Of a stretch of DNA of 64,000 bases, positions 1,858 through 27,404 are shown in pieces. The position numbers and the translations under genes are program-made. The stretch spans positions 124,001 to 188,000 of the forward strand of contig KV918855.1 of assembly GCA_002049455.2 (NCBI GenBank). Reading direction: 5' to 3'. Origin of the DNA: Porphyra umbilicalis. Taxonomy: Eukaryota; Rhodophyta; Bangiophyceae; Bangiales; Bangiaceae. Position 1 is the stretch's first letter; the number at the start of each line of letters is the position of its first letter. The notes below the pieces were generated by a model. It made no database searches and was not told the DNA's origin. It saw only the letters and a program-made list of their open reading frames with translations.

Positions 1858-2694
1858 TCAACGCATAGCCCGAAGGAAGCGGAGGACGCGCACACGCGTT
1901 CCCAACGGAATGGTCCCTCTGCATGTCCGCCGACTGGTGGACAGCAACACAGCCATGACGTCCTCCGCCAGAGAATCCAGCACCAGCTGCCCCGTGACGT
2001 CGTCCTGATCTGCAGCCAGGAAGATTGCTCGCGTCAGAGCCTCCTGGCGGTGTGGCTCCATACCGACACACGCCACCCGCGCCACTGCCTCAGCTACCTG
2101 CGCGGGAGCAAAGAAGCGAAAGCCAGGGATGGCCAGTCCCACAACTGCTTCTAGTGCCGCAGCGGGCTTGTCACCACCGCCCCCGACGCCGCCGCCGTCC
2201 GCCTCATCTTGGACGTCGTCGGCGGCGGCCGCGTCGTCCGCCTCACCCACATTTGCCGGACCACTGGTGGCGGGGTCACCTCCACCATGCGCGCCCCAAT
2301 CACCAGCACGACCCGGCCCTCCGGTAGCAGTGCCAGAACCCCCCCGCCCTTCAGGACCAACAGTACGTGTTCCGACAGCTGCTCCACCCGGTGGCGCATC
2401 CGCCGTCGGATGGAAGTGCCGGTGCATGGCGATGTGAACCCGGCGGCGATGGAGGGTGTCAGCCATCAAGTCTTCCTGCTGGATGGCCACGGCAAGCGTC
2501 GGTTCTGCTTCTATGACAGGAGGCACGGCGCGTCGGGGTGAGGCAGGCACGTCACGCCGGGAAGTTGATGATGTGCTCGACGAGGAACCCGCAGTGGGAC
2601 TCTCCACGACGGCAGCGGAAGCTTCCAGCGCGGAGAGGGCAGCGGGATGAAGGGAAGCCGCGGGGTCCAAGGCGCAGCTGCAGAAGTGGAGCAC
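1858..2694 (-). CDS. Unknown protein with conserved C-terminal module, short member
   Basis: Open frame of 278 codons. The first half is low complexity (Ser/Ala, then Gly/Ala/Asp-rich). The last 90 residues, from about 188, form a compact region containing FRFFAPAQV, HRQEALTRA and a final VRVLRFLRAMR just before the TGA stop. This region aligns along its length with the end of the 842-residue protein at 4502-7030, including the final residues at the stop, so the module is a real conserved domain. No ATG begins the open frame, so a first exon upstream or a later internal start is likely. No known domain was recognised. The gene points away from its relative, with an Ala-rich gene between them. 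Function unknown. Confidence 0.55.
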   Translation of the reverse strand: MLHFCSCALDPAASLHPAALSALEASAAVVESPTAGSSSSTSSTSRRDVPASPRRAVPPVIEAEPTLAVAIQQEDLMADTLHRRRVHIAMHRHFHPTADAPPGGAAVGTRTVGPEGRGGSGTATGGPGRAGDWGAHGGGDPATSGPANVGEADDAAAADDVQDEADGGGVGGGGDKPAAALEAVVGLAIPGFRFFAPAQVAEAVARVACVGMEPHRQEALTRAIFLAADQDDVTGQLVLDSLAEDVMAVLLSTSRRTCRGTIPLGTRVRVLRFLRAMR

Positions 2695-3395
2695 GGCGCC
2701 AGTCTGTCTTTGTCACTGTTCCAACGGGATGCCCGCCCTCGCAGCGCTGTCCCTCCGCGGCACTCGCGTGCAAACATCCAGCTTCCTTGGCTGAAATGGT
2801 GGTCTCCCTTTTGGAGCTCTGGGCACGCGCCTCTGCTGTCGCGGCCAGATCTGCTGCCTGCAGCAAAAAACCGCACCCAGACACGCGCTCCACGTCGGCA
2901 GAGGCGCAAGGTGCTGGTCACCGAAAAATGAGCACCCGTTGCGGTCAATCGCAGTGACACTACTGCACTGTGACACGATTGTGCAGAAAGCAGACACTGA
3001 AGGGGACGTGGAAGAGGGGGAATGGAGGGCCGAGTTCAGCCGCGCACGATGCGGGGAGATGGGTGGGTGCTGCCTGGAGATCATCCCGTGGCGCTGGATC
3101 ATCCGTGGCGCCGCAGCGTGCCGACGCGCACCGACACAAGCCGTTTATCTCGAAGTCAGACATCTGACCAGGGTGTGCGACGACCAATAAGACGTCTTCA
3201 CGTCGTAGATCACGCCTGTGCACACGCCTCGTGGACGTCCCTGAGCACGGGTCACGTGTTGTGACCAACCCTTTGCCACACAGGGGCCGGGTGCCGCAGC
3301 TCAGTGGATCCGCATCTCAGGGGATTCCTTCCCCGAGCAGAACGGCCAGGGCAGCAATCAGCAGACTTACGCTCGTCTGTTTCACCGCATCACCC

Positions 3396-4127
3396 ATGTC
3401 CTCCAATGCAGAGTCCATGATGCCCCTCGGCGGCAGGCGCCTCGGCGGTCGCCCCCCCCGTGTTCCTCGCCCGTCGGCGAGGTCCCCCTCGTCGCTACTT
3501 TCTATTGTTGCGCGTCATGGCCGTCGCCGGCCGGTCGCCAGAGGCCGAAGCGTGCAACTGTCTATTTGGGATGATGAGGTGGGGGGCCCAGGGGCTCGCG
3601 AGCCGCTGAGAATTCTGTCTCGGCGTGCTTCTGGCGTAGCGACGGGCAGTGCCGACGGGTTGGACGCCATAGCGGCTGCAATTATGCAGCGGCGACGACA
3701 AACGCACGGCGGAACGCCGTCGCGGCCCGACGACAACGGGGCTCTTCACATGCGGCCGCGACCGTCGCCGTCGGCGTCAGCCATGGCTACTTTGAAGGCT
3801 TTGCAGGCTGTAGCCCGCGCGGACGTTGCGCGCGCCATCGGTGTCAAGGCCGAAGCAGCCGCAGCAGCGGCGACGCTGAGCGGCAGGGCTTCCCCGAGGG
3901 TTATTCGGGCCGCGCTGGCCGCCGACGAGCGCGCTGCCTCCGTCTTCCTAACGGCTGAGGCCGACGCGGCCAGGACTGCGGATGAAGCAGTGTCTGCATG
4001 TGCGGCTGCTGCGGCTGCAGCAGCGGCAGAAGAAGCTGCAAGTGCAGCGGCGTCGGCCGCAGTTGAGGCGTTAATAGGGAGTTCTTCATGTGCTCTCGTC
4101 TTCTCACCTGTTTCTGACTTTGAGTGA
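3396..4127 (+). CDS. Ala-rich, probably helical protein
   Basis: Frame of 243 residues from the ATG at 3396; the open frame extends further upstream but only to non-ATG codons. The first 100 residues are Arg/Gly/Pro-rich (LGGRRLGGRPPR, VARHGRRRPVARGR), suggesting a disordered basic tail. From about residue 130 the protein is dominated by Ala with regularly spaced Arg, Asp and Glu (KALQAVARADVARAIGVKAE, FLTAEADAARTADEAVSA), which predicts a long helix or coiled coil. It ends SDFE at TGA. The opposite strand is also open across the Ala tract and cannot be excluded. It lies 375 bases upstream of the 842-residue gene on the same strand. No family recognised. Confidence 0.4.
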   Translation: MSSNAESMMPLGGRRLGGRPPRVPRPSARSPSSLLSIVARHGRRRPVARGRSVQLSIWDDEVGGPGAREPLRILSRRASGVATGSADGLDAIAAAIMQRRRQTHGGTPSRPDDNGALHMRPRPSPSASAMATLKALQAVARADVARAIGVKAEAAAAAATLSGRASPRVIRAALAADERAASVFLTAEADAARTADEAVSACAAAAAAAAAEEAASAAASAAVEALIGSSSCALVFSPVSDFE

Positions 4128-4501
4128 TGTATTCTTTCTGGCGCTGTGGTGCTGGTGACACACCCGTAGAGAAAAAAGGGCTCCTCCATTCACCTCAAGA
4201 CCTCGTCCCTCCCGTCCTTTCCATACCACCACAAGAGGGAGCTCCCTGAGCTCGGACGGTAGGCCAAAATAAAAAGCTTGCAAATCGGCGGACTTGCGCC
4301 TTGGAATCGTGCGCCAGTGGGGGTCGTCAAAAACATTTGGAGTGAGATCCCGATTGCTGTCCCCACGACCTCTCCAAGTCGCTTGCCGTGTCATTGTGGC
4401 TTGCGTTGCCCGGCACAGCGGTGCGCTGTGTTTCTGGTGGGCGCCGGAAAGAGCTCACGCAGCGCGTGCCGCCGTCGCGGCGCGCCGTTGCGACCGAGGT
4501 C

Positions 4502-7030
4502 ATGCCTCGTCTGTGCGATGGTTGCAGTGGGACAGCGGCAGCAGTGCCTGAGTCGCAGCAGGATGGCTCGCGCTATTTATGCGACGAGTGTGCCTCTCGC
4601 CCCGTCATCGAGCAAGGGGCGGCGCAGACCGGTGCCAGTACGCTGGAAAAGCGGCAGCGTACGGTTATCGGTGTTGGGGCGAGGTCGACGGTCCCGGCTT
4701 CGAAGATGAGTATGCGGGCGTTTTTGAGTGGCTCTGTCGAGCAGTGTGACAAGACGGCACCATCCAAGCGCAACGCGCCGACTGGACTCAGCTTCGGCCG
4801 GTCGCATGCGCCTCTTTTCGGGACGCGCAGCGTCGGGTCTTCTTCATGCTCCACGTCGGCAGACGCAGCGGCAAATTCGGGCCTTCCCGTGGCGGCGCAC
4901 GCGGGCGGCGCATTGGGGAGCGCGGCGGAGCAAGTGGCGGACACAATTGGCGGAGGCGCGGCGGCGCATTTCGTCGGCGCGTCGCTCAACACGGCGGAGC
5001 ACGTGGTGCTCGCGTCGGGCGGCCTCCCGGCGGCGCACTTGGTTGGCGAAACGCGCAACACGACGGAGCACGTGGCGGCCGAGACGGGCAGTGCCACGGC
5101 AGCGCACTTGGTGGGCGCGTTGGGCACAACGGCGGAGCACGCGGTGCTCGACTCGGGCAGCGTCGCGGCTGAGCACTTGGTCGGCAAGTCGGGCAACAGG
5201 TCGGAGCACGTGGCACCCACGATGGGCGGCGCTGCGGCGGCGCACGTGGTAGGCTCTTTCGGCAACACGACGAAACACGCGGAGCTGAAGGTGAGGGGCG
5301 TGACGGCGGCCCACTTGGTCGGCGCGTCGCGCGATACGATGGAGCACGCGGCGGCCACGATGGGCGGTGCGGCGACGGCGAATGTGGTGAGCGCGTCTGC
5401 CATTGCGCCAGATAACACGATCCGCGCGTCGGGCGGTGCCGCGGCGGCGCACTTGGTCGGCGCGTCGAGCGACACAACGGGGCACGCGGTGGCCGCAATG
5501 AGCGGCGCCGCGGCGGCGCACGTGGTCGGCGAGTTGGGCACCACAGCTGCCGATGCGCGTTCGGGCGGCGCGTTGGGCAACACCGCGGAGTACGCGGTGA
5601 CCAGGTCGGGTGGCGCCGCGGCGGCGCACTTGGTTGGCGCGCCGCGCACCACGTCGAAGCACGGGCCGGCCACGATGGGCGGCGCCGCGGCGCCGCAAGT
5701 GGGCAACGCGTTGGGCACCACGGCGGAGCACGCGGTGCTCGAGTCGGGCGGCGTCACGGAGGAGTACGTGGTCGGCAAGTCGGGCAACACGGCGGAGCAC
5801 GCGGCGGCCAAGATGAGCCGCGGTGCCGATGCGCGTGCGAGCAACACGTTGGGCAACACGGCGGAGTACGCGGTGACCAGGTCGGGTGGCGCCGCGGCGG
5901 CGCACTTGGTCGGCGCGCCGCGCACCACGTCGAAGCACGCGTCGGCCACGATGGGCGGCGCCGCGGCGCCGCACGTGGGCAACGCGTTGGGCACCACGGC
6001 GGAGCACGCGGTGCTCAAGTCGGGCGGCGTCACGGAGGAATACGTGGTCGGCAAGTCGGGCAACACGGCGGAGCACGTGGCGGCCAAGATGGGCCGTGGC
6101 GTGGATGCACGCGCGGGCGGCACGTTGGGCAGCACGGTGGAGCATATGGCGGAGCACACGGCGGCCCGGTCGGGTGGCGCAGCGGCGGAGCACGTGGTCT
6201 CCAATTCGGGCAACACGGCGGAGCACGCGGCAGCCAAGATGGGCCGCGCTGGGGTTGCGCGGGCGGGCGGCGCGTTAACAAACACGGCGGAGCACATGGC
6301 GAAGCACACGGCGGCCACGTCTGGTGGCGCTGCGGCGGCGCACTTGGTCGGCGCGCCGCGCAACGCGGCGGAGCACGCGACGGCCACGATGGACGGCATT
6401 GCGGCGGCGCACGTGGGCGGCACGACGGGCAGCGCGGCGATGAGGGGACTGTCCTTCGCGTCGCGGGCAGGGGCCGCCATTGCACTCTCCCGGCGTGCTG
6501 CTAGTGGTCGTCCTCTACTTCCGCCAGCTGCGTGGTCGCCATCGCGTCCCCCCTCTCCCATTCGTCGCCCAGCTTCTGGTATCCCCTTGCCGCGTCCACC
6601 CAGCGGGGACGTCCTGCCGATTTCATCCTCCCGTCGTCCTGGCCGACCCGACGTTGCCCCGGGTATTGTCCCTACTCCGCTGTATCGACCTGCCCAGCGT
6701 CCTCCGCCACCATCAAACGAGCGCGACGTCCGCGACGACCTCGATGAAGCAATTGACCATGCGGAGTTTCTATACTTTTCTCCCCACCAGGTTGGCGCAG
6801 CGATTGCCACCTTTGCGGGCGCACAACTGTCCCATGTGCGACAGCTTGAACTATACAGAGCGTTCACGTTGGGCGCCGTAGAAGGTAGCGTTGTCGGCAT
6901 TGTTGCGGTGCAGGAGGACATCCATCGCGTTGTGGAGGCGGTCATGACGTTTTACCGCCGCGGTCACGACGGCCGGGTGCCGTATGGCACTGAGTGCCGC
7001 GTGTTGCGCTTTTTGCGCCGCATGAGATAG
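4502..7030 (+). CDS. 842-residue protein: Cys4 finger, 23-residue repeats, conserved C-terminal module
   Basis: The ATG at 4502 is chosen because it places CDGC and CDEC (C5, C8, C27, C30; C-x2-C-x18-C-x2-C) at the N terminus, a small zinc-binding arrangement reminiscent of half a B-box. Residues about 150-646 are roughly 21 copies of a 23-residue repeat with consensus near GGAAAAHLVGASGNTAEHA. The spacing is kept except for a few longer units. A Pro-rich linker (PPSPIRRPASGIPLPRPPSG) follows. The last 95 residues (FLYFSPHQV, RQLELYRAF, RVLRFLRRMR at TAG) match the end of the protein at 1858-2694. The antisense strand is also open for 790 codons, but the finger, the conserved C terminus and the in-phase 69-bp repeats support the plus strand. 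Function unknown; a scaffold or DNA- or protein-binding role is only inference. Confidence 0.65.
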   Translation: MPRLCDGCSGTAAAVPESQQDGSRYLCDECASRPVIEQGAAQTGASTLEKRQRTVIGVGARSTVPASKMSMRAFLSGSVEQCDKTAPSKRNAPTGLSFGRSHAPLFGTRSVGSSSCSTSADAAANSGLPVAAHAGGALGSAAEQVADTIGGGAAAHFVGASLNTAEHVVLASGGLPAAHLVGETRNTTEHVAAETGSATAAHLVGALGTTAEHAVLDSGSVAAEHLVGKSGNRSEHVAPTMGGAAAAHVVGSFGNTTKHAELKVRGVTAAHLVGASRDTMEHAAATMGGAATANVVSASAIAPDNTIRASGGAAAAHLVGASSDTTGHAVAAMSGAAAAHVVGELGTTAADARSGGALGNTAEYAVTRSGGAAAAHLVGAPRTTSKHGPATMGGAAAPQVGNALGTTAEHAVLESGGVTEEYVVGKSGNTAEHAAAKMSRGADARASNTLGNTAEYAVTRSGGAAAAHLVGAPRTTSKHASATMGGAAAPHVGNALGTTAEHAVLKSGGVTEEYVVGKSGNTAEHVAAKMGRGVDARAGGTLGSTVEHMAEHTAARSGGAAAEHVVSNSGNTAEHAAAKMGRAGVARAGGALTNTAEHMAKHTAATSGGAAAAHLVGAPRNAAEHATATMDGIAAAHVGGTTGSAAMRGLSFASRAGAAIALSRRAASGRPLLPPAAWSPSRPPSPIRRPASGIPLPRPPSGDVLPISSSRRPGRPDVAPGIVPTPLYRPAQRPPPPSNERDVRDDLDEAIDHAEFLYFSPHQVGAAIATFAGAQLSHVRQLELYRAFTLGAVEGSVVGIVAVQEDIHRVVEAVMTFYRRGHDGRVPYGTECRVLRFLRRMR
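4950..6440. repeat. 69-bp in-frame repeat array with 276-bp higher-order duplication
   Basis: About 21 degenerate units of 69 bp lie inside the 842-residue gene. Four consecutive units starting at 5575 recur almost unchanged at 5851, exactly 276 bp (4 x 69) later. This is a recent segmental expansion within an older array, and it kept the reading frame. Confidence 0.85.
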
Positions 7031-10246: not shown

Positions 10247-11405
10247 TGATGCTCATTCGATGTGTGATTGTCGATGCCGACCACTGACGCCGCGCAGCGC
10301 GATGAAGATGAGGCAAGGGTATGGGCGTGGCGTCGTTCTGGCGACGTCGACAGCTACGACTCGAAATAGGAAGAGAAGCGCCGAACGCCTTCAGAGGGGA
10401 GCCAGCTTCGGATGGGGGCTGAGAAGCTGCATTCTTTATACTGCTGCGCGTGATTTCGCGACGAACTCTACTGCAACGGCTTGGGGAACCTGCTCCGACG
10501 GATACTCGTCGCAGAGGGCCTCCTCCGGTACGTCGGGTATTCAAGGTTCCGAAGTTCGCACGGCTGCATGTCCCACTGGCATGTCTTCCTGGGCCCACGC
10601 GTGGCTGACCTGAGAAGGATGCAGTGCTGCCAGTGCCTATGTCCCGCACGCGGCATAGTTTCGGACAGGTATTCGGCTCATCCCACAGACATGGACTCTC
10701 CGCCTACCGCGAGCTGTCGCAGACATCCTGTGGCAGAACGCGCCCCGCGCAGCAGGATGGGAGCTGTTGCGAATCGACCGCCCCCGCGGCCACCTCCCGC
10801 GCTGGCATGTCAACTAGCGCCTACGATACCTTTTCACAGGCAAGAGACGTGCCAGCAGTGGTACGGTATCATCGGCGCCCACTGTCACCCAGAGCGCGGC
10901 GAGCGGCGCACGACAGATACAGCAGGCACGAACCACAACTGCATCATAGCAATGTCTGGCTCTCCTCCCCTTCTTCCATACGCTGCCTTTTCGAGTGCAT
11001 GGATCGAGCGCGTCACACTGTTTTGGTGGCTGTCAACCTTTGCAAGTGAGGATATCATGCACACAGACCAGCAGCGCCCCCATGCGTGGTCAAACGACGA
11101 AGTCGAATAACACGTGTACTTAGGTACGCCTTCACATAAATATTCGGTTCTTGCGATCTGATGTCGTATCTCAGAGGACAGTCGGGGGCCACCCCTGCTT
11201 TTCTTGCGGGGCGGATCCGCCACCTCCGCCCCCATGTCCCCTTCCATGTCCCCTTTCCTGTTGCCTGAAGCACCACGGCCTGCCTCACCGTCGGCAAGGC
11301 GGCCACCAAGACCGGCACCACGTGCCAGTTCACCGACGGCGCCGCCATCACGGACCTGTTTGCCAAAAGACGGACGCCCACGCCGCCGTAGTGTAACCCG
11401 GACGG

Positions 11406-11615
11406 CCACCGCGCTCCGTTCCGTGGACGGTGCGGACACTGAGTCGCCCCCCGCGCTCCTTCCCGTCGACGGCGCTGCCACCGAGACGGCCACCGCGCTC
11501 TGTCCCGTGGACGGCGCGGGCCCTGAGGCGGCCCCCACGCTCTTTCCCGTCGACGGCGCTGCCACCGAGACGGCCACCGCGCTCTTTTCCGTCGACGGCG
11601 ACGGCTCCGCCACGG
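11406..11615. repeat. 42-bp tandem repeat, 5 units, copy 1
   Basis: Five 42-bp units immediately upstream of the transposase start, alternating two variants. On the minus strand they encode a 14-residue repeat (APSTGRSAGGDSVS and variants) followed by the AT-hook-like RRRGRPSFG and a Lys/Arg-rich stretch (PPRKKSRGG). That hints at a divergent ORF head-to-head with the transposase, though no ATG was found. The matching array in copy 2 is at 18938-19147. Confidence 0.7.
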
Positions 11616-11642
11616 CAACGGCGTGCCTGCCCCACGAAGGCC

Positions 11643-12668
11643 ATGTTCTCTGAGGAGCAACGGCTCCACGCGCTGCAACTTTGCGACGAGGGGTATTCGA
11701 TTGACGAGGTGGCCGTCATCATTGGCTGTCCGACGCACTCGATTGACCGCTGGCGGCGCGCACTGGCCGCTACGGGCTCCGTGTGGCAGGAACCTGAGAT
11801 GAAGAACTCGCACGCTGACGCGGCCATGCGCAACGACGACCTCGTGCGGGCTGTGAAGTTGCTGGTGGAGTTGGAGCCTGTCGCATTTTTGCGCGACCAC
11901 GTGGACCTGTTAGTCCCTCTCAGCACCTACTACCCCGAGGTGGACCACCGCTACGTCAGCTCCGCCACCGTCTACCGCGTCTTGCGCCATCTCGGCTACA
12001 CGCGCAAACGGGTCGAGCGTCTTTTCCTCGAGCGCTCAGATCAAAAGCAGCGCGAGTTCGCCGTCATGATCAACCAGCTCCCGGTCCGCTGTCTGGTCAG
12101 TGTCGACCAGACGCATACTGACGGCGGCGACGTGTACCGGAACTTCGGCCGGACGTTGCGCGGTGACCGGTGCGATCTGCTGGACCGCGACCCGCGGACC
12201 GTGCCGAGGACAAGCACGATGATGGCGGTCTCCATGACGCAGGGATTAGTGTGGTCTCAGACCGTTGTGCTGGGCCCGGCGCAGACGTCGGACGCCTGGT
12301 GCCTCTTTTTGCAATGCCTAGACACGAGGATGAACAAGTATGTGCCTGGATTGCCCTGGGCTTTGCAGCCCGTCGCCTGCGTCGTCTTGTACGACAATGC
12401 AGGCATCCATGATGAGGCGGGCGATGCCTTTATGCAGAAGAGCGGCATCCACCACGTCCGCCTACCTCCTTACTCCCCCAACTTGATGCCCGTTGAGGAA
12501 GTGTTCGCCGAGCTCAAGAAGCACGTGTAAGACCTCGTCCACGCCAACGCGCAGGACTTGGACAAGCCCATGCAGCTGATGGCGGCAGCCGTGGGGCGCT
12601 TGACTTTGCGGCAGATTTTCGGCCAGTTCCAGCGCATGGCAGAGAAGGTGGACGAGTTGCTGCTCTGA
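11643..12668 (+). pseudogene. Tc1/mariner/IS630-type transposase, copy 1 (premature stop)
   Basis: A 341-codon frame from ATG 11643 with a TAA at 12528-12530 where copy 2 has CAA. The N-terminal helix-turn-helix (SIDEVAVIIGCPTHSIDRWR) is followed by a second DNA-binding part (YVSSATVYRVLRHLGYTRKR) and the DDE catalytic fold. The first Asp is in SVDQTHTD, the second in VVLYDNAGIHD, and the Glu in PYSPNLMPVEEVFAELKKH, 33 residues after the second Asp, which is near the Tc1 spacing. All three acidic residues are present. The stop removes the last 46 residues, after the catalytic Glu. About 32 of the first 295 residues differ from copy 2, most of them amino-acid changes, so constraint appears relaxed. 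Confidence 0.85.
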
Positions 12669-12935
12669 TTCTCCGAGTGCTTGCTGGCCGCTGTGTTTTT
12701 GCTCGGCCGCCGGAGTGCAACGCGTCTTTCTTTCGTGCGTACTTGCCACCGTTCTTTTGTTTCAGTCTCTGTCTCTCGCGCGCCATCCCTTTTCCGGTCA
12801 AACCGGCAGGTGAACGGCCTGCAACCGCACGTGAATGCCACCTACCCCACCGCGTCGACCCTCTCCACGCATCATCCCTCAACCGCCACAAGGACCTCTT
12901 TTGCGCAGCGCAAGAGCGATGAAGCTGTCGTTTCC

Positions 12936-13311
12936 GCGCCGCCGCGACGGCCAATGCCGCCGACGAGCGCGCACCGCCGGCGCCGTCCCGCCGCCGCCAA
13001 CGGGCGGCGCCAAGGATGCTAGCGTCCCCGCGCCACGGCGACGGCCACTGCCGCCGACGAGTGCGCACCGCCGGTGCCGTCCCGCGGCAGCCAACGTGCG
13101 GCGCCAATGACGCTGGCGTCGCCGCGCCACCACGACGGCCACTGCCACCGACGAGTGCGCACCGCCGGCGCCGTCCCGCCGCCGCCGACGTGCGGCGCCA
13201 GGGACGCTGGCGTCCCCGCGCCGCCGCGACGGCCACTGCCACCGACGAGTGCGCATTGCCGGCGCCGTCCCGCCGCCACCGACGTGCGGCGCCAAGGACG
13301 CTGGCGTCGCC
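12936..13311. repeat. 94-bp minisatellite, exactly 4 units
   Basis: Units start with GCGCC(G/A)C and end with GACGCTGGCGTC(G/C)CC; 4 x 94 = 376 bp. 94 is not a multiple of 3, so the Arg/Ala/Pro-rich frames across it are not a conserved protein repeat. Degenerate related units continue to about 14070. Confidence 0.9.
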
Positions 13312-14359
13312 GCGCCGTAGCGACGCCGCGCCGCCTCGGCAGCCACTGTCGCCGATGAGGGCGGATCGTCGGTGCCGTCCAGCCGCCGCCGACGCGCGAC
13401 CGCAGCACCGATTCGCGTCTATCTTCAGCGCTGACCCGACAAGCGTCGGCGGGGGCGTAGGGATTGGTGGTGGCGGCGTGATGATTGCCTGCTGCGGAGG
13501 CAGAGGCGTGGCGGCGTAAAGCCACAGCACACAAACGACGTGGTGGCGGGCGACGCTGCGCTGAACTCGCCGCCCGCCACCGCCGTGGGCGTTCTCCACG
13601 GCTTGGCGGCACCCACCCGGGCAAAAGGCGCGGCCGCGCGAATGTTCAGCACACAGGCGGACTGGTAGCGATCAGCGCCGTGCTGGCATCGACGCCCGCC
13701 ATCGCCGCGGGGGTGCTCCAAGCGCCTGTGGCCGCCGCCTTCATGCCCACGCTACCCCGCCCGCCGCGTCATCCCACCCCCGCCACGGGCGGGTCCCAGT
13801 CTTCTGCGCAGCGCGCCGCCTCGGCGGCCACTGATTGTCGGCGCCGTCCCGCCGCCGCCTATGCGGGCCGCAAAGGACAACGCGCGCCGCCAAGTACGCT
13901 GGCGTCGCCGCCCCGCCTCGGCGGCCGCTGCTACCGATACGGCGCCGTTCTGCCGCCGGCGAGGCGCGCCGTCAAGGACGCTGGCGTCGCCGCGCTATCA
14001 CGACTGCCACTGCCGTTGATGAGCGCGCATCATCGGCGCCGTCCCGCCGCCGTCGACGCGAGAACGGGGCATCTGTGCGCGCCTATTGTCGGTGCCGACC
14101 CGAAACGCGTCGGCGGTGGCGTAAGGCTTGGCGGCCGCGGCGGTAGAGGCGCAGCTGCGCCAAGCCGTTGCACATAGTCGGCCCGGTGGCGGGCGGCGCC
14201 GTTCTGGTATCGCCGCCGGCCACCGCATCTGGCGTCGTGCACGGATTGGCGGCACCGGAGCCGAACGCGCGAACGCGTGAAGGCGCAGCACGCAGGCGGC
14301 CCGGTGCCGAACGGCGGCGTCCTGATATTGCCGCCCGCCACCGCCGTGGAGGTGATGCA

Positions 14360-15076
14360 TCCCTAGTGGCCGCCGGGGGGAGTTGTCAGTCCCCCGTGGC
14401 CGTCACCTGCCCCAAAGCACCACACCCCGTGCGCATCACCCTACGACAGCCACCGGCACGCTGGCGACGCCGCGGGGGGCGCGCCTCCGTGCAGCATGGT
14501 GCCGTGTAACGCTGTGTCGACCAGTGCAGCGCCGAGTGCGCCGTCGGTCACCGACGCGAGAAGAGTGACACCCCGCAGTCGACACGGGAGTTCTCAACCT
14601 TCAACGGATTCCACCTGGGCCGTCGGAACATTCCCTGCCCGTGCAACACGCCCAGCGCGATCCACACGACCTTTGTTTCACTCTTTGGCCACTGTGGGCA
14701 CCACCAGGGGAGGTTGGGCACTGTGGCATCAAGTGCGCGGCACGCATAAAATAGACAGGCTTCCAACAGACGATGTCCAGGTTTCGAGTTCAATCTGTGC
14801 GCGCAAAGACTGGGAGGATGGCCTCAAGACTACAGCAATGACGTCTTGCAGAGCCGCCCGACTCAACCCGAGACGCATACCACCGCCCTGCGACCCATCA
14901 CCACCCTACACACAACCTCATACGCCCACCTCCACCCTACACGCCACCTCAAACGCATGTGCACAACTGCACACGCATGTGACGACTGTAATCGACGCCC
15001 GAATCACGTGTCCGACGGGCCGCGCACAGGTGCTGACGCACTATCATCGGTGGTGTCTGCTGTAGTAGCTGCGGCC
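14360..15076. other. Spacer in duplicated block
   Basis: Shared with 22310-23040 of copy 2. Contains a short ACCCTACAC-type repeat at about 14880-14950. No gene recognised. Confidence 0.4.
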
Positions 15077-15912
15077 CTACCGGCGCACTATTGCAAGGCG
15101 TCGACATTCATTGAAGACCGACTCGCCTGCGCGTGCGGCGGCGGCAGCTGGCAGCGTGTCGCCAGAGGCGGAGCCGAGTCGCGACTGCTGCTGGGCAGTG
15201 GGGGAGGCCGCCAACTTGCCCTTGCGTCGTACGAGCGTCTCCACGGCGAGGGCGACGCTGGAGAGCAACGCCGGCTGCAAGGTCGGGGGCATACCAGAAC
15301 AGGGCCATTCCGCGACTTGGGCAGCCGACAAAATGCCTGACATGAGGGAGTAGCCCCTGACGTGCGTCGCCAGGGCCCCCTTCATGAGAGCGGACGCTTG
15401 TTCTGGGTCTGCATCTGCGACAGGGCAGTGGGCACATCTTTTCAATAACCATGTGTGCCACACAGAGCGGCGTGCTGCTGCCGAAGGCTTTGTCGTAGAA
15501 AAACGGCATCTCGGCCGAGAAGCCCCCCGCGTGCGGGTCGGCCACAGACTGTCGGGTTGACGGCGACTGTCTCGTTCTCGGGAAGCGGGTAGACTGTCGA
15601 CTGCCCGGTTTTCTTGCGCCTTCGCATTGCCCTTTCCCTTGGTGCTGCGCTGCGGCGCCTCCGCCGGCGACTTGGCCTTGCTGATGGCGGCGGCGTAGAG
15701 GCCCATGCGACCGCCCGGCGGGCCGCGCTGCCCCTTGCGGCTGCCTCTGCCACTGTGCTGTTTCGCAACGGCGCTGTTCCGGTCCTCGTTGTCAGTGGAC
15801 TCGTCCTCCGTGGCGCCGTCATCGTCACCGCCGTCGACGTCGCTCTCAACGGCGTTGGCGGCGCGGCGGTTCGCTTCCACAGCGCCTTCGTCGCGATTCT
15901 CAACCAGAGCGT
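15077..15912 (-). CDS. Zinc-knuckle ORF, C-terminal part, copy 1 (cut by gap)
   Basis: Minus-strand frame entering from the N gap. It matches the C-terminal half of the ORF at 23043-24614: the acidic ESDVDGGDDDGATEDE stretch, the basic KQHSGRGSRKGQRGPPGG stretch, and the Ala/Leu-rich SGMPPTLQPALLSSVALAV region. Between these, short parts no longer match copy 2 and the C terminus is extended and different, so this copy is probably decayed. The Cys/His cluster would lie in or beyond the gap. Confidence 0.5.
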
Positions 15913-16558
15913 NNNNNNNNNNNNNNNNNNNNNNNNNNNNNNNNNNNNNNNNNNNNNNNNNNNNNNNNNNNNNNNNNNNNNNNNNNNNNNNNNNNNNNNN
16001 NNNNNNNNNNNNNNNNNNNNNNNNNNNNNNNNNNNNNNNNNNNNNNNNNNNNNNNNNNNNNNNNNNNNNNNNNNNNNNNNNNNNNNNNNNNNNNNNNNNN
16101 NNNNNNNNNNNNNNNNNNNNNNNNNNNNNNNNNNNNNNNNNNNNNNNNNNNNNNNNNNNNNNNNNNNNNNNNNNNNNNNNNNNNNNNNNNNNNNNNNNNN
16201 NNNNNNNNNNNNNNNNNNNNNNNNNNNNNNNNNNNNNNNNNNNNNNNNNNNNNNNNNNNNNNNNNNNNNNNNNNNNNNNNNNNNNNNNNNNNNNNNNNNN
16301 NNNNNNNNNNNNNNNNNNNNNNNNNNNNNNNNNNNNNNNNNNNNNNNNNNNNNNNNNNNNNNNNNNNNNNNNNNNNNNNNNNNNNNNNNNNNNNNNNNNN
16401 NNNNNNNNNNNNNNNNNNNNNNNNNNNNNNNNNNNNNNNNNNNNNNNNNNNNNNNNNNNNNNNNNNNNNNNNNNNNNNNNNNNNNNNNNNNNNNNNNNNN
16501 NNNNNNNNNNNNNNNNNNNNNNNNNNNNNNNNNNNNNNNNNNNNNNNNNNNNNNNNNN
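15913..16558. other. Assembly gap (646 N)
   Basis: Run of N. Frames drawn across it are artefacts. Confidence 1.
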
Positions 16559-17777: not shown

Positions 17778-18937
17778 TGATGCTCATTCGATGTGTGATT
17801 GTCGATGCCGACCACTGACGCCGCGCAGCGCGATGAAGATGCGGCAAGGGTATGGGCGTGGCGTCGTTCTGGCGACGTCGACAGCTACGACTCGAAATAG
17901 GAAGAGAAGCGCCTAACGCCTTCAGAGGGGAGCTAGCTTCGGATGGGGGCTGAGAAGCTGCATTCTTTATACTGCTGCGCGTGATTTCGCGACGAACTCT
18001 ACTGCAACGGCTTGGGGAACCTGCTCCAACGGATACTCGTCGCAGAGGGCCGCCTCCGGTACGTCGCGTATTCAAGGCTCCGAAGTTGGCACGGCTGCAT
18101 GTCCCACTGGCATGTCCACCTGGGCCCACGCGTGGCTGACCTGAGAAGGATGCAGTGCTGCCAGTGCCTATGTCCCCCACGCGGCAAAGTTTCGGACAGG
18201 TATTCGGCTCAGCCCACAGACATGGACTCTCCGCCTACCGCGAGCTGTCGCACACATCCTGTGGCAGAACGCGCCCCGCGCAGCAGGATGGGAGCTGTTG
18301 CGAATCGACCGCCCCCGCGGCCACCTCCCGCGCTGGCATGTCAACTAGCGCCTAAAATACCTTTTCACAGGCAAGAGACGTGCCAGCAGTGGTACGGTAT
18401 CATCGGCGCCCTTTGTCGCCCAGAGCGCGGCGTAGCGGCGCACGACAGATACAGCAGGCACGAACCACAACTGCATCGTAGCAATGTCTGGCTCTCCTCC
18501 CCGTTTTCCATACGCTGCCTTTTCGAGGGCATGGATCAAGCGCGTCACACTGTTTTGGTGGCTGTCAACCTTTGCAAGTGAGGATATCATGCACACAGAC
18601 CAGCAGCGCCCCCATGCGTGGTCAAACGACGAAGTCGAATAACACGTGTACTTAGGTACGCCTTAAAATAAGTATTCGGTTCTTGCGATCTGATGTCGTA
18701 TCTCAGAGGACAGTCGGGGGCCACCCTTGCTGTTCTTGCGTGGCGGATCCGCCACCTCCGCCCCCATGTCCCCCTCCATGTCCCCTTTCCTGTTTCCTGA
18801 AGCACCACGGCCTGCCTCACCGTCGGCAAGGCGGCCACCAAGACCGGCACCGCGTGCCAGTTCACCGACGGCGCCGCCATCACGGACCTGTTTGCCAAAG
18901 GACGGACGCCCACGCCGCCGTAGTGTGACCCGGACGG

Positions 18938-19147
18938 CCACCGCGCTCCGTCCCGTGGACGGTGCGGACACTGAGTCGCCCCCTGCACTCCCTCCTGTCG
19001 ACAGCGCTGCCACCGAGCCGTCCACCGCGCTCTGTCCCGTGGACGGCGCGGGCCCTCAGGCAGCCCCCACGCTCCTTCCCGTCGACGGCGCTGCCACCGA
19101 GACGGCCACCGCGCTCTTTTCCGTCGACGGCGACGGCTCCGCCACGG
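18938..19147. repeat. 42-bp tandem repeat, 5 units, copy 2
   Basis: Same array as 11406-11615, upstream of the copy 2 transposase. The divergent minus-strand frame stops earlier here (18663) than in copy 1. Confidence 0.7.
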
Positions 19148-19174
19148 CAACGGCGTGCCTGCCCCACGAAGGCC

Positions 19175-20200
19175 ATGTTCTCTGAGGAGCAACGGCTCCA
19201 CGCGCTGCACCTTTGCGACGAGGGGTACTCGGTTGACGAGGTGGCCGTCACCATTGGCTGCTCGACGCACTCGATTGACCGCTGGCGGCGCGCACTGGCC
19301 GCTACGGGCTCCGTGTGGCAGGACCCTGAGATGAAGAACTCGCACGCTGACGCGGCTATGCGCAACGACGACCTCCTGCGGGCTGTGAAGTTGCTGGTGG
19401 TGTCGGAGCCTGTCGCATTCTTGGGCGACCACGTGGACCTGTTAGTCACTCTCAGCACCTACTACCCCGAGGTGGACCACCGCTACGTCAGCTCCGCCAC
19501 CGTCTACCGCGTCTTGCGCCATCTCGGCTACACGCGCAAACGGGTCGAGCGTCTTCTCCTCGAGCGCTCAGATCAAGAGCAGCGCGAGTTCGCCGTCATG
19601 ATCAACCAGCTCTCGCTCCGCTATCTGTTCAGTGTCGAAGAGACGCATACTGACGGCGGAGACGTGAACCGGAACTTCGGCCGGACGTTGCGCGGTGACC
19701 GGTGCGAGCTGCTGGACCGCGACCCGCGGACTGTGCCGAGGACAAGCACGATGATGGCGGTCTCCATGACGCAGGGAGTAGTGTGGTCTCAGACCGTTGT
19801 GCTGGGCCCGGCGCAGACGTCGGACGACTGGCGCCTCTTTTTGCAATGCCTAGACACGAGGATGATCAAGTATGTGCCTGGATTGCCCTGGGCTTTGCAG
19901 CCCGACCCCTGCGTCGTCTTGTACGACAATTCGGGCATCCATGATGAGGCGGGCGATGCCTTTATGCAGGAGAACGGCATCGACCACGTCCGCCTACCTC
20001 CTTACTCCCCCAACTTGATGCCCGTTGAGGGAGTGTTCGCCGAGCTCAAGAAGCACGTGCAAGACCTCTTCTACGCCAACGCGCAGTACTTGGACAAGCC
20101 CATGCAGCTGATGGCGGCAGCCGTGGGGCGCTTGACTTTGCGGCAGATTTCCAGCCAGTTCCAGCGCATGGCAGAAAAGGTGGACGAGTTGCTGCTCTGA
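19175..20200 (+). CDS. Tc1/mariner/IS630-type transposase, copy 2 (full frame, altered first Asp)
   Basis: Uninterrupted 341-residue frame, ATG to TGA. Helix-turn-helix near residues 10-40 (SVDEVAVTIGCSTHSIDRWR), second DNA-binding region near 100-125, catalytic region 150-290. The second Asp (VVLYDNSGIHDEAG) and the Glu (PPYSPNLMPVEGVFAELK) are kept, but the first catalytic position reads FSVEETHTD where copy 1 has VSVDQTHTD. Asp to Glu at this place normally abolishes cleavage in DDE enzymes, so full length does not mean active. The open frame extends 71 codons upstream through the 42-bp repeats; ATG 19175 is chosen because similarity to the family starts there and both copies keep it. Confidence 0.85.
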   Translation: MFSEEQRLHALHLCDEGYSVDEVAVTIGCSTHSIDRWRRALAATGSVWQDPEMKNSHADAAMRNDDLLRAVKLLVVSEPVAFLGDHVDLLVTLSTYYPEVDHRYVSSATVYRVLRHLGYTRKRVERLLLERSDQEQREFAVMINQLSLRYLFSVEETHTDGGDVNRNFGRTLRGDRCELLDRDPRTVPRTSTMMAVSMTQGVVWSQTVVLGPAQTSDDWRLFLQCLDTRMIKYVPGLPWALQPDPCVVLYDNSGIHDEAGDAFMQENGIDHVRLPPYSPNLMPVEGVFAELKKHVQDLFYANAQYLDKPMQLMAAAVGRLTLRQISSQFQRMAEKVDELLL

Positions 20201-20467
20201 TTCTCCGAGTGCTTGCTGGCCGCTGTGTTTTTGCTCGGCCGCCGAAGTGCAACGCGTCTTTCTTTCGTGCGTACTTGCCACCTTTCTCTTGTTTCAGTCC
20301 CTGTCTCTCGCGCGCCATCCCTTTTCCGGTCAAACGGACAGGTGAACGGCCTGCAACCGCACGTGAATGCCACCTACCCCACCGCGTCGACCCCCTACAC
20401 GCATCATCCCACAACGGCCACAAGGACCTCTTTTGCGCAGCGCAAGAGCGATGAAGCTGTCGTTTCC

Positions 20468-21219
20468 GCGCCGCCGCGACAGCCAACGCCGCCGACGAGC
20501 GCGCACCGCCGGCGCCGTCCCGCCGCCGCCGACGGGCGGCGCCAAGGACGCTAGCGTCCCCGCGCCACCGCGACGGCCACTGCCGCCGACGAGTTCGCAC
20601 CGCCGGTGCCGTCCCGCGGCAGCCGACGTGCGGCGCCAAGGACGCTGGCGTCGCCGCTCCACGGCGACGGCCACTGCCACCGACGAGTGCGCACCGCCGG
20701 CGCCGTCCCGCCGCCGCCGACGTTCGGTGCCAAGGACGCTGGCGTCCCCGCGCCGCCGCGACGGCCACTGCCACCGACGAGTGCGGACCGCCGGCGCCGT
20801 CTCGCCGCCGCCGACGTGCGGTGCCACGGACGCTGGCGTCGCCGCGCCGCCGCTACAGCCACTGCCACCGAAGAGCGCGCACCGCCGGCGCCGTCCCGCG
20901 GCCTGCGACGTACGGCGCCAAGGACGCTGGCGTCGCCGACACGCCGCGACGGCCACTGCCACCGACGAGTGCGCACCGCCGGCGCCGTCCCGCCGCCGCC
21001 GACGTGCGGCGCCACGGACGCTGGCGTCCCCGCGCCGCTGCGAGGAACTCTGCCGCAGACGAGGGCGCACCGCCGGCGCCGTCCCGCCGCCGCCGACGTG
21101 CGGCGCCAAGGACGCTGGAGTCTCCGCGCCGCCGCGACGGCCACTGCCACCGACGAGTGCGCACCGCCGGCGCCGTCCCGCCGCCGCCGACGTGCGGCGC
21201 CAAGGACGCTGGCGTCGCC
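20468..21219. repeat. 94-bp minisatellite, exactly 8 units
   Basis: 8 x 94 = 752 bp, same unit and same flanks as the 4-unit array at 12936-13311. It is bounded on the right by GCGCCGTAGCGACGCCGCG in both copies. Confidence 0.92.
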
Positions 21220-21579
21220 GCGCCGTAGCGACGCCGCGCCGCCTCGGCAGCCACTGTCGCCGATGAAGGCGGATCGTCGGTGCCGTCCAGCCGCCGCCGA
21301 CGCGCGACCGCAGCACCGATTCGCGTCCATCTTCGGCGCCGACCCGACACGCGTCGGCCGGGGCGTAGGGATTGGTGGTGGCGGCGTGATGATTGTCTGC
21401 GGCGGAGGCAGAGGCGCGGCGGCGTAAAGCCACAGCACACAAACGACGTGGTGGCCGGCGACGCTGCGCTGGACTCTCCGCCCGCCACCGCCGTGGGCGT
21501 TCTCCACGGCTTGGCGGCACCCACCCGGGCAAAGGCGCGGCCGCGCAAATTTTCAGCACACAGGCGGATTGGTAGCGAT

Positions 21580-21669
21580 CAGCGCCGTGCTGGCATCGAC
21601 GCCCGCCATCGCCGCGGGGGTGCTCAGCGCCGTGCTGGCATCGACGCCCGCCATCGCCGCGGGGGTGCT
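21580..21669. repeat. 45-bp tandem duplication
   Basis: CAGCGCCGTGCTGGCATCGA and the following bases are present twice in copy 2; the corresponding place in copy 1 (about 13673) has one unit. Confidence 0.85.
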
Positions 21670-23042
21670 CAAAGCGCCTGTGGCCGCCGCCTTCATGCCC
21701 ACGCTACCCCGCCCGCCGCGTCATCCCACCCCCAGCACTGACGGGTCCCAGTGTTCTGCGCAGCGCGCCGCCTCGGCGGCCACTGATGGTGGACGCCGTC
21801 CCGCCGCCGCCGATGCGGGCCGCAAAGGACAACGCGCACCGCCAAGGACGCCGGCATCGGCGCTCCGCCTCGGCGGCCACTGCTACCGATACGGCGCCGT
21901 CCTGCCGCCGGCGGGGCGCGCCGCCAAGGACGCTGGCGTTGCCGCGCTGCCGCAACGGCCACTGCCGTTGATGAGCGCGCATCAACGGCACAGTCCCGCC
22001 TCCGTCGACGCGAGAACGGAGCATCTGTGCGCGCCAATTGTCGGTGCCGACCCGAAACGCGTCGGCGGTGGCGTAAGGCTTGGCGGCGGCGGCGGTAGAG
22101 GCGCGGCTGCGCCAAGCCGTTGCACATAGTCGGCCCGGTGGCGGGCGGCTCCGTTATGGTATCGCCGCCGGCCGCCGCATCTGGCGTCGTGCATGGATTG
22201 GCGGCACTGGAGCCGAACGCGCGAACGCGTGAAGGCGCATCACGCAGGCGGCCCGGTGCCGAACGGTGGCGTCCTGATATTGCCGCCCGCCACCGCCGTG
22301 GAGGTGGTGCATCCCTACCGGCCGCCGGGGGGACTTGTCAGTCCCCCGTTGCCGTCACCTGCCCCAAAGCACCATACCCCGTGCGCATCACCCCACGACA
22401 GCCACCGGCACGCTGGCGACGCCGTGGGGGGCGCGCCTCCGTGCAGCATGGTGCCGTGTAGCGCGGTGTCGACCAGCGCAGCGCCGAGTGCGCCGTCGGT
22501 CACCGACGCGAGAAAAGTGACACCCCGCAGTCGACACGGGAGTTCTCAACCCTCAACGGATTCCACCTGGGCCGTCGGAACATTCCCTGCACGTGCAACA
22601 CGCCCAGCGCCACCCACACGACCTTTGCTTCACTCTTCGGCCACTGTGGGCACCAGCAGGGGAGGTTGGGCACTGTGGCATCAAGTGCGGGGCACGCATA
22701 AAATAGAAGGGCTTGCAACAGACGATGTCCAGGTGGCGAGTTCAATCTGTGCGCGCAAAGACGGGGAGGGTGGCCTCAAGACTACAGCAATGACGTCTTG
22801 CAGAGCCGCCTGACTCAACCCGAGACGCATACCACCGCCCCGCGACCCACCACCACCCTACACACAACCTCATACGCCCACCACCACCCTACACGCCACC
22901 TCAAACGCATGTGCACAACCGCACACGCATGTGACGACTATAATCGACGCCCGAATCACGTGTCCGACGGGCCGCGCACAGGTGCTGACGCACTATCATC
23001 GGTGGTGTCTGCTGTAGTAGCTGCGGCCCCACCGGCGCACTC

Positions 23043-24614
23043 TTACAAGGCGTTGACATCCATGACGACCGACCCGCGTGCGCGTGCGGCGGCGGCAGCT
23101 GGCAGCGTCTCGCCAGAGGCGGAGCCGAGTCGCGACTGCTGCTGGGCAGTGGGGGAGGCCGCCAACTTGCCCTTGCGTCGTACGAGCGTCTCCAGGGCGA
23201 GGGCGACGCTGGAGAGCAACGCCGGCTGCAAGGTCGGGGGCATACCAGACCAGAGCCATTCCGCGACTTGGGCAGCCGACAAAGTGCCTGAAATGAGAGA
23301 GTAGCCCCTGACGTGCGTCGCCAGGGCCCCCTTAATGAGAGCGGACGCCAGTTCTGGGTCTGCATCTGCGACAGGGCAGTGGCACATCTGTACAATAACC
23401 ATGTGTGCCACACGGAGCGGCGGGCTGCTGCCAAGGGCCTTGTCGTAGAAAAACGGCATCTCGGCCGAGAAAGCCCCCCGCGTGCCGGTCGGCCACAGGC
23501 TGTCGGGGTTGACGGCGACTGTCTCGTTCTCGGGAAGCGGGTAGACTGTCGACTGCCCGGTTTTCTGCGCCTTCGCCTTGCCCTTTCCCTTGGTGCTGCG
23601 CTGCGGCGCCTTCGCCGGCGACTTGGCCTTGCTGATGGCGGCGGCGTAGAGGCCCATGCGACCGCCCGGCGGGCCGCGGTGCCCCTTGCGGCTGCCTCTG
23701 CCACTGTGCTGTTTCGCAACGGCGCTGTTCCGGTCCTCATTGTCGGTGGGTTCGTCCTCCGTGGCGCCGACATCGTCACCGCCGTCGAGGTCGCTCTCAA
23801 CGGCGTTGGCGGCGCGGCGGTTCGCTTCCACAGCGCCTTCGTCGCGATTCTCAACCAGAGCGTCAAACGCCACGTTGTTGCTGACGTGGAGCACGAACGC
23901 CTGGCTGCCATTGGACTGCAGCAGCTTGATCGACTCGCCCCGGCCGACGTCCGCAGCGCAGGTGTTGGCCCGCAGCCGCGTCACATTGCGCCGCCGTTCG
24001 GCGCCCATCTCGGAAGCGGCCGCCGAGACGCTCTGCGTGTTGTCAACAAGGTTCTTGCCAGTTTCGTCATTCATCATGACGCAGACAAAGTCCGACTCAT
24101 CCAGGTCACGCTTGCACGTCTTGCGGAGTAGACGCCCATCCTTCAGCTGCCACCGGTCCAGAGCATACGTCTGGGTGCCGTACTGGTGCCCCGTCAGACC
24201 GCACACGCCGCAGAGCTTGAGGTGGATGCACTTCGCGTCACCACACTGGCCCTTCTTGTGGAAGGGGTGGTCCGCGGGCAAGCTGTGTCGGCAGAGCGTT
24301 TGGCGTAGAGGGCAGGTGCGCGCCGTGTGGCCGCTCCCGTCCGGCGGCGCCACGCAGTGGCAAATGCCACACATCCCCATGTTGGGATGGGTGGGGATGG
24401 CGGCAGCGATGAGCGGGGAGTGGTAGAAGAGACGACACAGGCCACACAGACGCCACCTGTGGAAGGCCAGGAGGTCGTGAGTACTCTGCCACGGCTGAAA
24501 TGGGGCGATCAAGGGACGCGGCAGAGTGGCGAGGCGCGCCACAGCAACTACGCAGCCGCGTCCTCCCGTCAAAGCCATCAAGGGTGGCCCACGTGGCCCT
24601 GCGCCGCTCTCCAT
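23043..24614 (-). CDS. Zinc-knuckle protein of the duplicated block
   Basis: Minus-strand frame of 523 residues from the ATG at 24612-24614 to TAA. Residues 57-143 hold a dense Cys/His cluster: CGLC, CGIC plus HTARTC (C-x2-C-x10-H-x4-C), CRHSLPADHPFH, CGDAKC, and CGVCGLTGH (C-x2-C-x4-H), suggesting several zinc knuckles for nucleic-acid binding. The middle is acidic (ESDLDGGDDVGATEDEPTD) then basic (KQHSGRGSRKGHRGPPGG, STKGKGKAKAQ). The C-terminal third is Ala/Leu-rich and probably helical. It lies convergent to the transposase, across the minisatellite. Its presence in both block copies suggests it belongs to the same unit. No family recognised; an accessory DNA-binding protein is inference. 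Confidence 0.6.
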   Translation of the reverse strand: MESGAGPRGPPLMALTGGRGCVVAVARLATLPRPLIAPFQPWQSTHDLLAFHRWRLCGLCRLFYHSPLIAAAIPTHPNMGMCGICHCVAPPDGSGHTARTCPLRQTLCRHSLPADHPFHKKGQCGDAKCIHLKLCGVCGLTGHQYGTQTYALDRWQLKDGRLLRKTCKRDLDESDFVCVMMNDETGKNLVDNTQSVSAAASEMGAERRRNVTRLRANTCAADVGRGESIKLLQSNGSQAFVLHVSNNVAFDALVENRDEGAVEANRRAANAVESDLDGGDDVGATEDEPTDNEDRNSAVAKQHSGRGSRKGHRGPPGGRMGLYAAAISKAKSPAKAPQRSTKGKGKAKAQKTGQSTVYPLPENETVAVNPDSLWPTGTRGAFSAEMPFFYDKALGSSPPLRVAHMVIVQMCHCPVADADPELASALIKGALATHVRGYSLISGTLSAAQVAEWLWSGMPPTLQPALLSSVALALETLVRRKGKLAASPTAQQQSRLGSASGETLPAAAAARARGSVVMDVNAL

Positions 24615-26167
24615 AGCGGCATCTCCCCCACACCCCCCACAGAACAATCATGAGTGCCCCACGGCGCCTCAACGCCCCCCCCCAGCGCGCGGAGAGCACC
24701 GACGCGCCACGCCGCACAGCCCCAGAATGCATCTCCGCGGCGGGTGATTGCAAAAGAGGCCCGACCAAAGTGGCAAACGATGGCAAGGCGCTACGGCGTG
24801 GGGCCCATTCAGCCACTCATTCGCAGGTACCGCTACAAAAAAGAAGGCGGTGGGGTGGCAAAAACAACATCACAGAGCAAACTTTACCTGAAGAGACGGT
24901 ACGGGGCATCACATGGCCCGGATGACTCGCATCGACTGCCGCTGCGGGAGCAGTGCAGTGCTTGCCGGTTTCAAAAGCGGAGCCGTGCTGGCCGCCATCA
25001 TACCCGCAGGGCGCCAAGTAAAAGATGCGGAAGCGGGCAGCAAAGCGGAAGGGCGATCACTGCCGATTTGGAGAGCAGCCGCCGATGGCCGTAGAGGGCG
25101 CCCAGGGGAGCTTTTAGGAGGTGGGCGCCGAGGGGATGCCGTTCGTGTTGAAAGAGGAGCGCAGCTGACTGGTGCGGAGACCGGGGGGCAGGGATCCCAC
25201 CCCGCCGTGTGCTGCCAGGAGCATGGTGGGCGTGTGGGCGCGCCTGTCGCGCCAAAACTGGGCTTTGATGATACCCGTGCCGCTGACAGAGAAGCATGCG
25301 GTGAGACCAGGGAGAGAGAATGAAATCGTCGGTGATCATGGCATTTTATTGGCCCTCGGATTCCCCCAGCTCTCGTGAGGCACTCGGGATTTAGTGGTCC
25401 ACTTCGGGTTTGGGCAAACGTTGACAACATCTAAGGTTGCAATTTATAGAAAAGCACCATAGACACTTCCTGAGACATCTGGCGAGCGATCCAATAAGGA
25501 TCGCTCTGCAACCTCTCCCTTTCAGCAATGTTCTGGCAGTCGCTGCAATGATGGCCTGCACGTCGGTGGCTTCGTAGAAAGAGAACGACGCATACTAGCG
25601 TTCCGTTTTCTTCTCCTGCTCAAGGCTCCGTGCACATCGCCCACGCGGCCCGCCCGTTCCCGCTGCCAGCCCCCCCTCCCCGTGCCTCAACGCGCAGCCG
25701 GGCCACCAAGGCGGCCACCGCCGCCACAACCGCCCCACATCCCGGCCGCCGCCACTGTCGCCGCGACCATTGCACACGCCATCAACAAATCATGCACAAA
25801 TACGCAGAAGAGAAGGGAACGCCGTGCAGAGGAGAGAGAAGCGCGCGTCAGACGCGCTGCAAACAGACAACATCATACATACTGGCAGTTCGACTGACGT
25901 CCACACCTACAAACATATCACTCACAGATACACAACGCCACCGCCACGGCCTCATCCCCGCGCTCCCCCCACGCCCGCTCCCCCTTCCGCTGGATTGCCT
26001 CCTCCCGCTCCCCCTCCCCCTGCTCCTTCCCCCCCGCCGGCTTGTTGCAGGGGGAAGAAGGGTGAGTCGCGGACTTTTAAAAGGCAGAGAGCGGCCCAGC
26101 CGTGGCCGAGTGGGTACGCTGCGAGGGCGCACCCGGAGGCGGCGGCTGTCAGCAACGTCGCTGCAGG

Positions 26168-26290
26168 CGGCGGCCCAACAGAACGCCGAACAGAATCGCT
26201 GTTGGGCAACAGCCGAACAGAAGGCCATTTGTTGGGGCCGCCTGTTCGGAAACAGACGCCGAACAGAACGCCATTGTGTTCGGCGCCGCT
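26168..26290. repeat. Short palindromic repeat, copy 1
   Basis: Contains CTGTTCGGAAACAGACGCCG followed by AACAGAACGCC, alternating inverted copies of CTGTTCGGC and CCGAACAG. Related to 27349-27404. Confidence 0.55.
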
Positions 26291-27348: not shown

Positions 27349-27404
27349 CATCTGTTGGGCGTCTGTTCGGCAACAGACGCCGAACAGAATGGCGTTCTGT
27401 TGGG
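27349..27404. repeat. Short palindromic repeat, copy 2
   Basis: GTCTGTTCGGCAACAGACGC then CGAACAGAATGGCGTTCTGT: two nested hairpins, matching 26242-26272. Miniature-transposon-like, but no target duplication was found. Confidence 0.55.

Follow-up and report, generated by a model that had tools for sequence, protein, structure and literature searches.

Transcription factors of red algae have been little explored. The described systems that come closest to the proteins discussed here are the GATA zinc-finger transcription factors (PF00320), the SAM domains, including the N-terminal SAM oligomerization domain of LEAFY (PDB entry 4ude), and the ankyrin-SAM proteins. A stretch of 64,000 nucleotides from contig KV918855.1 of Porphyra umbilicalis (the window; its contig is referred to as C95) contains two neighbouring genes, A and B, whose proteins share a C-terminal module of 90 residues. 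The alignment of the two tails is ungapped and comprises residues 192-278 of A and 794-880 of the GTG-started frame of B (756-842 of the 842-residue protein), with 33 of 87 residues identical (38%) and an E-value of 1.2e-14 (BLASTP, default statistics). The local score of 128 is reached by none of 2000 shuffles (mean 26, standard deviation 4.7, maximum 52), and both proteins terminate with RVLRFLR[AR]MR directly before the stop codon. As judged from this comparison the tails are homologous, in agreement with the original prediction, in which the shared module was first noticed.

The profile search proposed with that prediction reveals many further members of the module in the genome (83.8 Mb, 665 contigs). 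Searches with four members yield a union of at least 28 places among the best candidates scored; the 25 copies referred to as verified are the places that were read, those on C196, C253 and C61 lying outside that count. The verified copies are located on 16 contigs and all match a 19-row profile, their own rows included, with E-values of 3.5e-24 or better. Nine rows tested with their own row, or a group of two or three rows, left out give E-values of 5e-39 to 1.3e-10 among 2689 open frames, the latter value belonging to the most divergent verified member (C188, three rows left out). The claim that the module ends exactly at the stop codon holds, to the residue, for 20 of the 25 copies, A and B among them, but the other five have 2-28 residues beyond it; a common end of module and protein is the rule and not a requirement. 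Columns P13, L36, A44, G51, G76 and F89 are invariant in the 19 rows, and the last helix (GTRVRVLRFLRAMR) is arginine-rich, with several invariant or nearly invariant columns. In addition 16 metagenome proteins were found, including P0012, for which PF00320 is listed. None of 67 pattern-fitting stretches on viral contigs encodes a relative (tblastn).

The original prediction knew of no family with this signature, and the libraries searched bear this out. Only four unrelated Pfam families appear among the 19 module members, none of them in more than a single member and with 0.06 as the best E-value, and one search of PDB sequences with the module gives no match. The 23 PDB sequence matches of the module profile (best E 0.019) are short stretches of C2H2 fingers and were dismissed. 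Titles and opening parts of abstracts among the papers matched, and passages of PMC4844672 and PMC12567131, contain no description of the module, on GATA proteins or elsewhere, or of the gene unit presented below; the Porphyra genome paper (PMC5547612), which lies outside this scope, may mention the genes.

Estimates of the ratio of nonsynonymous to synonymous divergence (dN/dS) are based on Nei-Gojobori counts and are rough, several dS values being larger than 1. Excluding the pair C95/C70, the module shows values of 0.04-0.24 in A and 0.07-0.31 in B (14 of 15 pairs each), compared to 0.20-0.50 for whole A (15 pairs) and 0.43-0.61 for whole B (9 of 10 pairs, with 1.29 for C95/C70), in both cases with the module included. 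Whole B of C211 was excluded, since its finger and module are in different frames. The youngest pair, C95/C70, with very few changes, has module values of 0.76 (A) and 0.78 (B). Purifying selection acts more strongly on the module than on A and B taken as wholes (0.04-0.31 against 0.20-0.61 for A and B together). The module is therefore the part best held by selection, while the middles drift, which together with the many members supports the original view that the domain is functional and belongs to a gene family whose middles evolve fast. In the module tree, groups are formed by seven A rows (95/97), by the A rows of C193, C151 and C155 (96/93) and by nine B rows (80/79); the A rows are not united all together.

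We sorted the 25 carriers into ten A, nine B and two F proteins, an ankyrin protein (C188) and an Asp/Asn-rich protein (C205), with those on C89 and C240 outside these classes. The A proteins have an N-terminal motif with psi-K-x-E sites, psi-K-x-E being the SUMO attachment consensus, and, in the best copies, HRRRVAVAMHRHFHP. The B proteins carry a Cys4 finger, directly after the start methionine where seen, followed by a variable or repetitive middle; in the window this includes the 23-residue repeats noticed earlier, which are confirmed as a tandem array. The F proteins (C137 and C268) combine a GATA finger, the N-terminal motif of A and the module. A profile of eight A motifs retrieves both F proteins, with E-values of 1.5e-9 and 4.3e-9; the strongest of 1080 shuffled decoys gives 0.045, and the strongest of eight B proteins 38. 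Because F holds all three parts, A and B look like its complementary halves, each with a module of its own. A second motif of B (SFASRAGAAIALSRRA) is kept among the B proteins without significance in F, and was set aside.

GATA fingers (PF00320, Pfam curated cut-off 26.8 bits) accompany the module on C268 (56.1 bits), C137 (54.7), C151 (47.2) and C117 (31.0), and the finger of B on C38 scores 18.4 bits, under the cut-off. Among B proteins, those of C151 and C117 and P0012 have a clear GATA finger and that of C38 a weak one, and the finger has decayed on C95, C70, C211, C20 and C205; none was seen in the B frame read on C155. In window B, which PF00320 does not match at E<=1, the four cysteines are kept and the tryptophan and arginine hallmarks are gone; judged from its relatives, this Cys4 finger is of the GATA type in a decayed state. 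With this finger, and with distinctive parts of both proteins joined to one module in F, the description of A and B as otherwise unrelated is no longer tenable.

The likely start codon of window A (2668-2670) is TTG, where C70, C211, C20 and C38 have ATG (MDP/MDT), and translation from the first ATG in the frame would yield 202 residues. No psi-K-x-E remains in its motif region. Since A is without the usual ATG and psi-K-x-E and the finger of B is decayed, the window copy of the pair may be failing or specialised. Elsewhere, the finger and module of B on C211 (L034:5458-7819) are split between separate open frames, with a cysteine of the finger missing, so that this B is read as a broken or misassembled copy. 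The annotated protein BU14_0390s0003 (P0017, NCBI, Porphyra umbilicalis) matches the C268 open frame over its full length with 90% identity (720 columns with gaps); its gene model (L046:4115-6556) leaves the open frame inside the module, and the annotated protein consequently is without most of it.

A and B are parts of a recurring unit, A-M-B-ZnK. Divergent A-M neighbours are found at ten loci (C95, C70, C211, C20, C38, C205, C151, C155, C193 and C224), and these ten contigs also carry the ten best of 18 rows in a search with M. The sequence S-P-[VL]-S-D-F-E ends eight of the ten M copies beside A, those of C155 and C193 being different; the resemblance of the M terminus FSPVSDFE to the first residues of the module is read as a coincidence. 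M has dN/dS values of 0.32-0.84 (15 pairs). The ZnK search scored 81 of 244 candidates, and the 12 best of its 92 rows are spread over 11 contigs, every one of which bears the module; within this scope no close ZnK row is found on the module contigs C224, C117, C89, C240 and C188. The order A(-) M(+) B(+) ZnK(-) is observed on C95, C70, C211, C20 and C38, and inverted on C205. On C193, A, M and ZnK are present with B undetected, and C224 bears just A and M; C151 and C155 have B beyond A, at ~9 and ~21 kb, respectively; on C137 and C268 the F gene lies ~16-18 kb from ZnK, and no M was found. At five loci, 475-740 bases separate the starts of A and M. On C205 an additional repeat protein, rich in Asp, Asn and Ala and itself carrying a module (L037:5804-7876), is situated between A and M, and no close copy of it was found elsewhere.

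DNA identity to the window is 97% for C70, 83-89% for C211, 66-81% for C20 (in pieces) and 64-78% for C38, C205 and C224 (in patches); judging by these differences, the duplications of the unit are of different ages. C70 might be taken for the other allele of C95, given 97% identity over 9.4 kb, but positions 40-42 kb of the window meet only high-copy repeat pieces there, which are not collinear and, among the matches listed, 81-93% identical. On C57, C86, C113, C33 and C23, relatives of M lie ~11 kb from a GATA finger that is divergent and sub-threshold; the distance is equal on C57 and C86. These loci perhaps represent another class of unit, in which no module was detected.

The fourth gene, ZnK, has no Pfam match. 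A module in its C-terminal part, suggested by an iterated profile (E 1e-23, three ZnK frames), was taken as profile drift. The module-only profile gives E-values of 4e-4, 0.4 and 2.2 against three ZnK copies, and profile comparison a probability of 2.9 with a P-value of 0.015; a distant link between ZnK and the module may exist. The three frames were excluded from every module count.

Features of the unit in the window (positions of the window)
Feature	Position	Strand	Description
Gene A frame	1858..2694	-	278 residues + stop; stop codon 1858-1860
C-terminal module of A	1861..2130	-	90 residues, up to stop
N-terminal motif of A	2407..2517	-	psi-K-x-E region, then HRRRVHIAMHRHFHP; common to F proteins
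Gene M	3396..4127	+	243 residues, divergent to A; C-terminus FSPVSDFE
Gene B	4502..7030	+	842 residues, from ATG
Cys4 finger of B, judged GATA-type and decayed	4514..4591	+	C-x2-C-x18-C-x2-C
Tandem array of B	4926..6440	+	69-base (23-residue) unit
C-terminal module of B	6758..7027	+	90 residues, up to stop TAG 7028-7030
Partial second ZnK copy	15149-15910		
ZnK frame	23046..24647	-	534 codons; Cys/His clusters resembling zinc knuckles, judged by eye; fourth gene of unit

The window has a G+C content of 62% and contains no Rfam family at gathering score and no transfer RNA. In the genome around it, ten match rows represent light-harvesting proteins, and for the two that were read the best match is a chain of PDB 7y5e, a complex of the red alga Porphyridium. 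Positions 10247-15912 and 17778-23863 form a duplicated stretch (93-95% identical) that includes a DDE_3 transposase frame of Tc1/IS630-like type and a portion of ZnK, and a run of N occupies 15913-16558. Nested repeats are present at 25460-28200, where an element (~26156-27423) with inverted ends of ~35 bases is situated inside a repeat starting at ~25460. Positions 40001-42000 comprise a high-copy repeat (193 genome match rows) with proline/alanine-rich open frames, and 50327-51358 a Copia-like fragment with GAG-pre-integrase and weak integrase matches, both under the Pfam cut-off.

Our preferred, still tentative, reading is that the module is a small helical association domain, possibly SAM-like, of red-algal nuclear regulators derived from GATA factors, in which A and B complement F. 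The structure model that had been proposed as a check shows five helices in SAM order, but it is of moderate confidence and its matches to SAM domains, with LEAFY's first, are weak. Sequence profiles lend no support to the SAM-like part: SAM families are absent from the 19 modules at E<=10 (with speed filters that drop most matches above 0.1), PF00536 is found at five other places in the genome, without a module, and hhalign of the module to seven Polycomb-type SAM sequences yields a probability of 0.2, equalled by 36 of 200 shuffles. The original prediction had suggested a targeting or assembly tag; of these two, assembly is favoured by the architecture and by the weak fold resemblance of the model.

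The arginine-rich last helix and the GATA fingers in several carriers would also suit a basic tail for nucleic-acid binding or nuclear localization, with the helix contacting DNA, RNA or importin. The invariant columns are spread across all 90 residues, more like those of a folded domain, and the module also occurs on an ankyrin protein without other Pfam domains, which makes such a tail a rather unlikely explanation. Similarity of the tails by recent gene conversion, without a functional domain, could be imagined for genes of one unit that start ~1.8 kb apart, but is highly improbable, as the module tree does not group A and B by unit, the two window modules differ at 62% of their residues, and members without a detected partner exist on C117, C137, C268, C188, C240, C89, C193 and C224.

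It is also conceivable, though we consider it doubtful, that A-M-B-ZnK is a selfish or mobile multi-gene unit, i.e., a transposable element or drive-like locus, with A and B as its regulatory or structural proteins. Ten A-M copies of widely differing ages (97% to 64-78% identity in aligned pieces), internal stops in A of C224 and in M of C224 and C155, the frequent presence of ZnK alongside and the repeat-rich surroundings fit this idea. In contrast, Pfam reveals no transposase, integrase or reverse-transcriptase domain in the window A, B, M and ZnK frames, and the homology with C70 and C211 extends leftwards past A by 1.8 kb, where the window ends, as far as compared. Moreover, old copies show strong purifying selection on their modules, which is unusual for dead copies of an element. 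On the right, the homology with C70 and C211 ends at 25462-25463, the start of another repeat.

In the association reading, the module probably works as a connector that brings its carrier proteins together. An F-type chain would comprise a GATA finger, a psi-K-x-E pair with the basic RRRxVA motif, and the module; B would have retained the finger and the module, and A the psi-K-x-E/basic motif and the module. The A and B proteins of one unit would be made together and meet via their modules, so that the chromatin contact of B and the modifiable segment of A, possibly a site of SUMO-like modification, are united in one complex, where F would do both in a single chain. M, transcribed away from A, might join as a third partner via its conserved acidic end. 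Either direction may be envisaged from the sequences, i.e., a split of F or a fusion of A and B. More speculatively, and with little confidence on our part, a GATA regulator of a red alga was split into complementary halves, both with a copy of an undescribed association domain; oriented away from one another, the halves were fixed in a four-gene unit that multiplied across the genome, giving parallel, possibly mutually exclusive pairs with their specificity in module-module recognition. A conserved association module that joins partners with and without a finger, and was amplified in blocks, would provide a compact natural experiment on the evolution of partner specificity once a gene has been split, and would open a way to the regulators of an important seaweed group; the module would also add a domain beyond the Pfam version searched.

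Compared to the known systems, the likeness to GATA factors lies in the GATA finger of the relatives on C151, C117, C137 and C268 and of P0012, whereas the window B finger is without the Trp/Arg hallmarks and A is without a finger match. The module differs from the SAM domains, LEAFY's included, in the absence of sequence similarity (Pfam, profile comparison), in its C-terminal position and, by eye against known SAM sequences, in a longer connection from the fourth helix to the fifth; its model, moreover, is of moderate confidence only. The C188 protein, with ankyrin repeats and a C-terminal module, resembles the ankyrin-SAM proteins, although no SAM is detectable in its module. As kinds of parts, fingers, ankyrin repeats and small helical association domains are already known; the module itself is best regarded as a new domain, which the libraries searched do not describe, on a GATA family variant.
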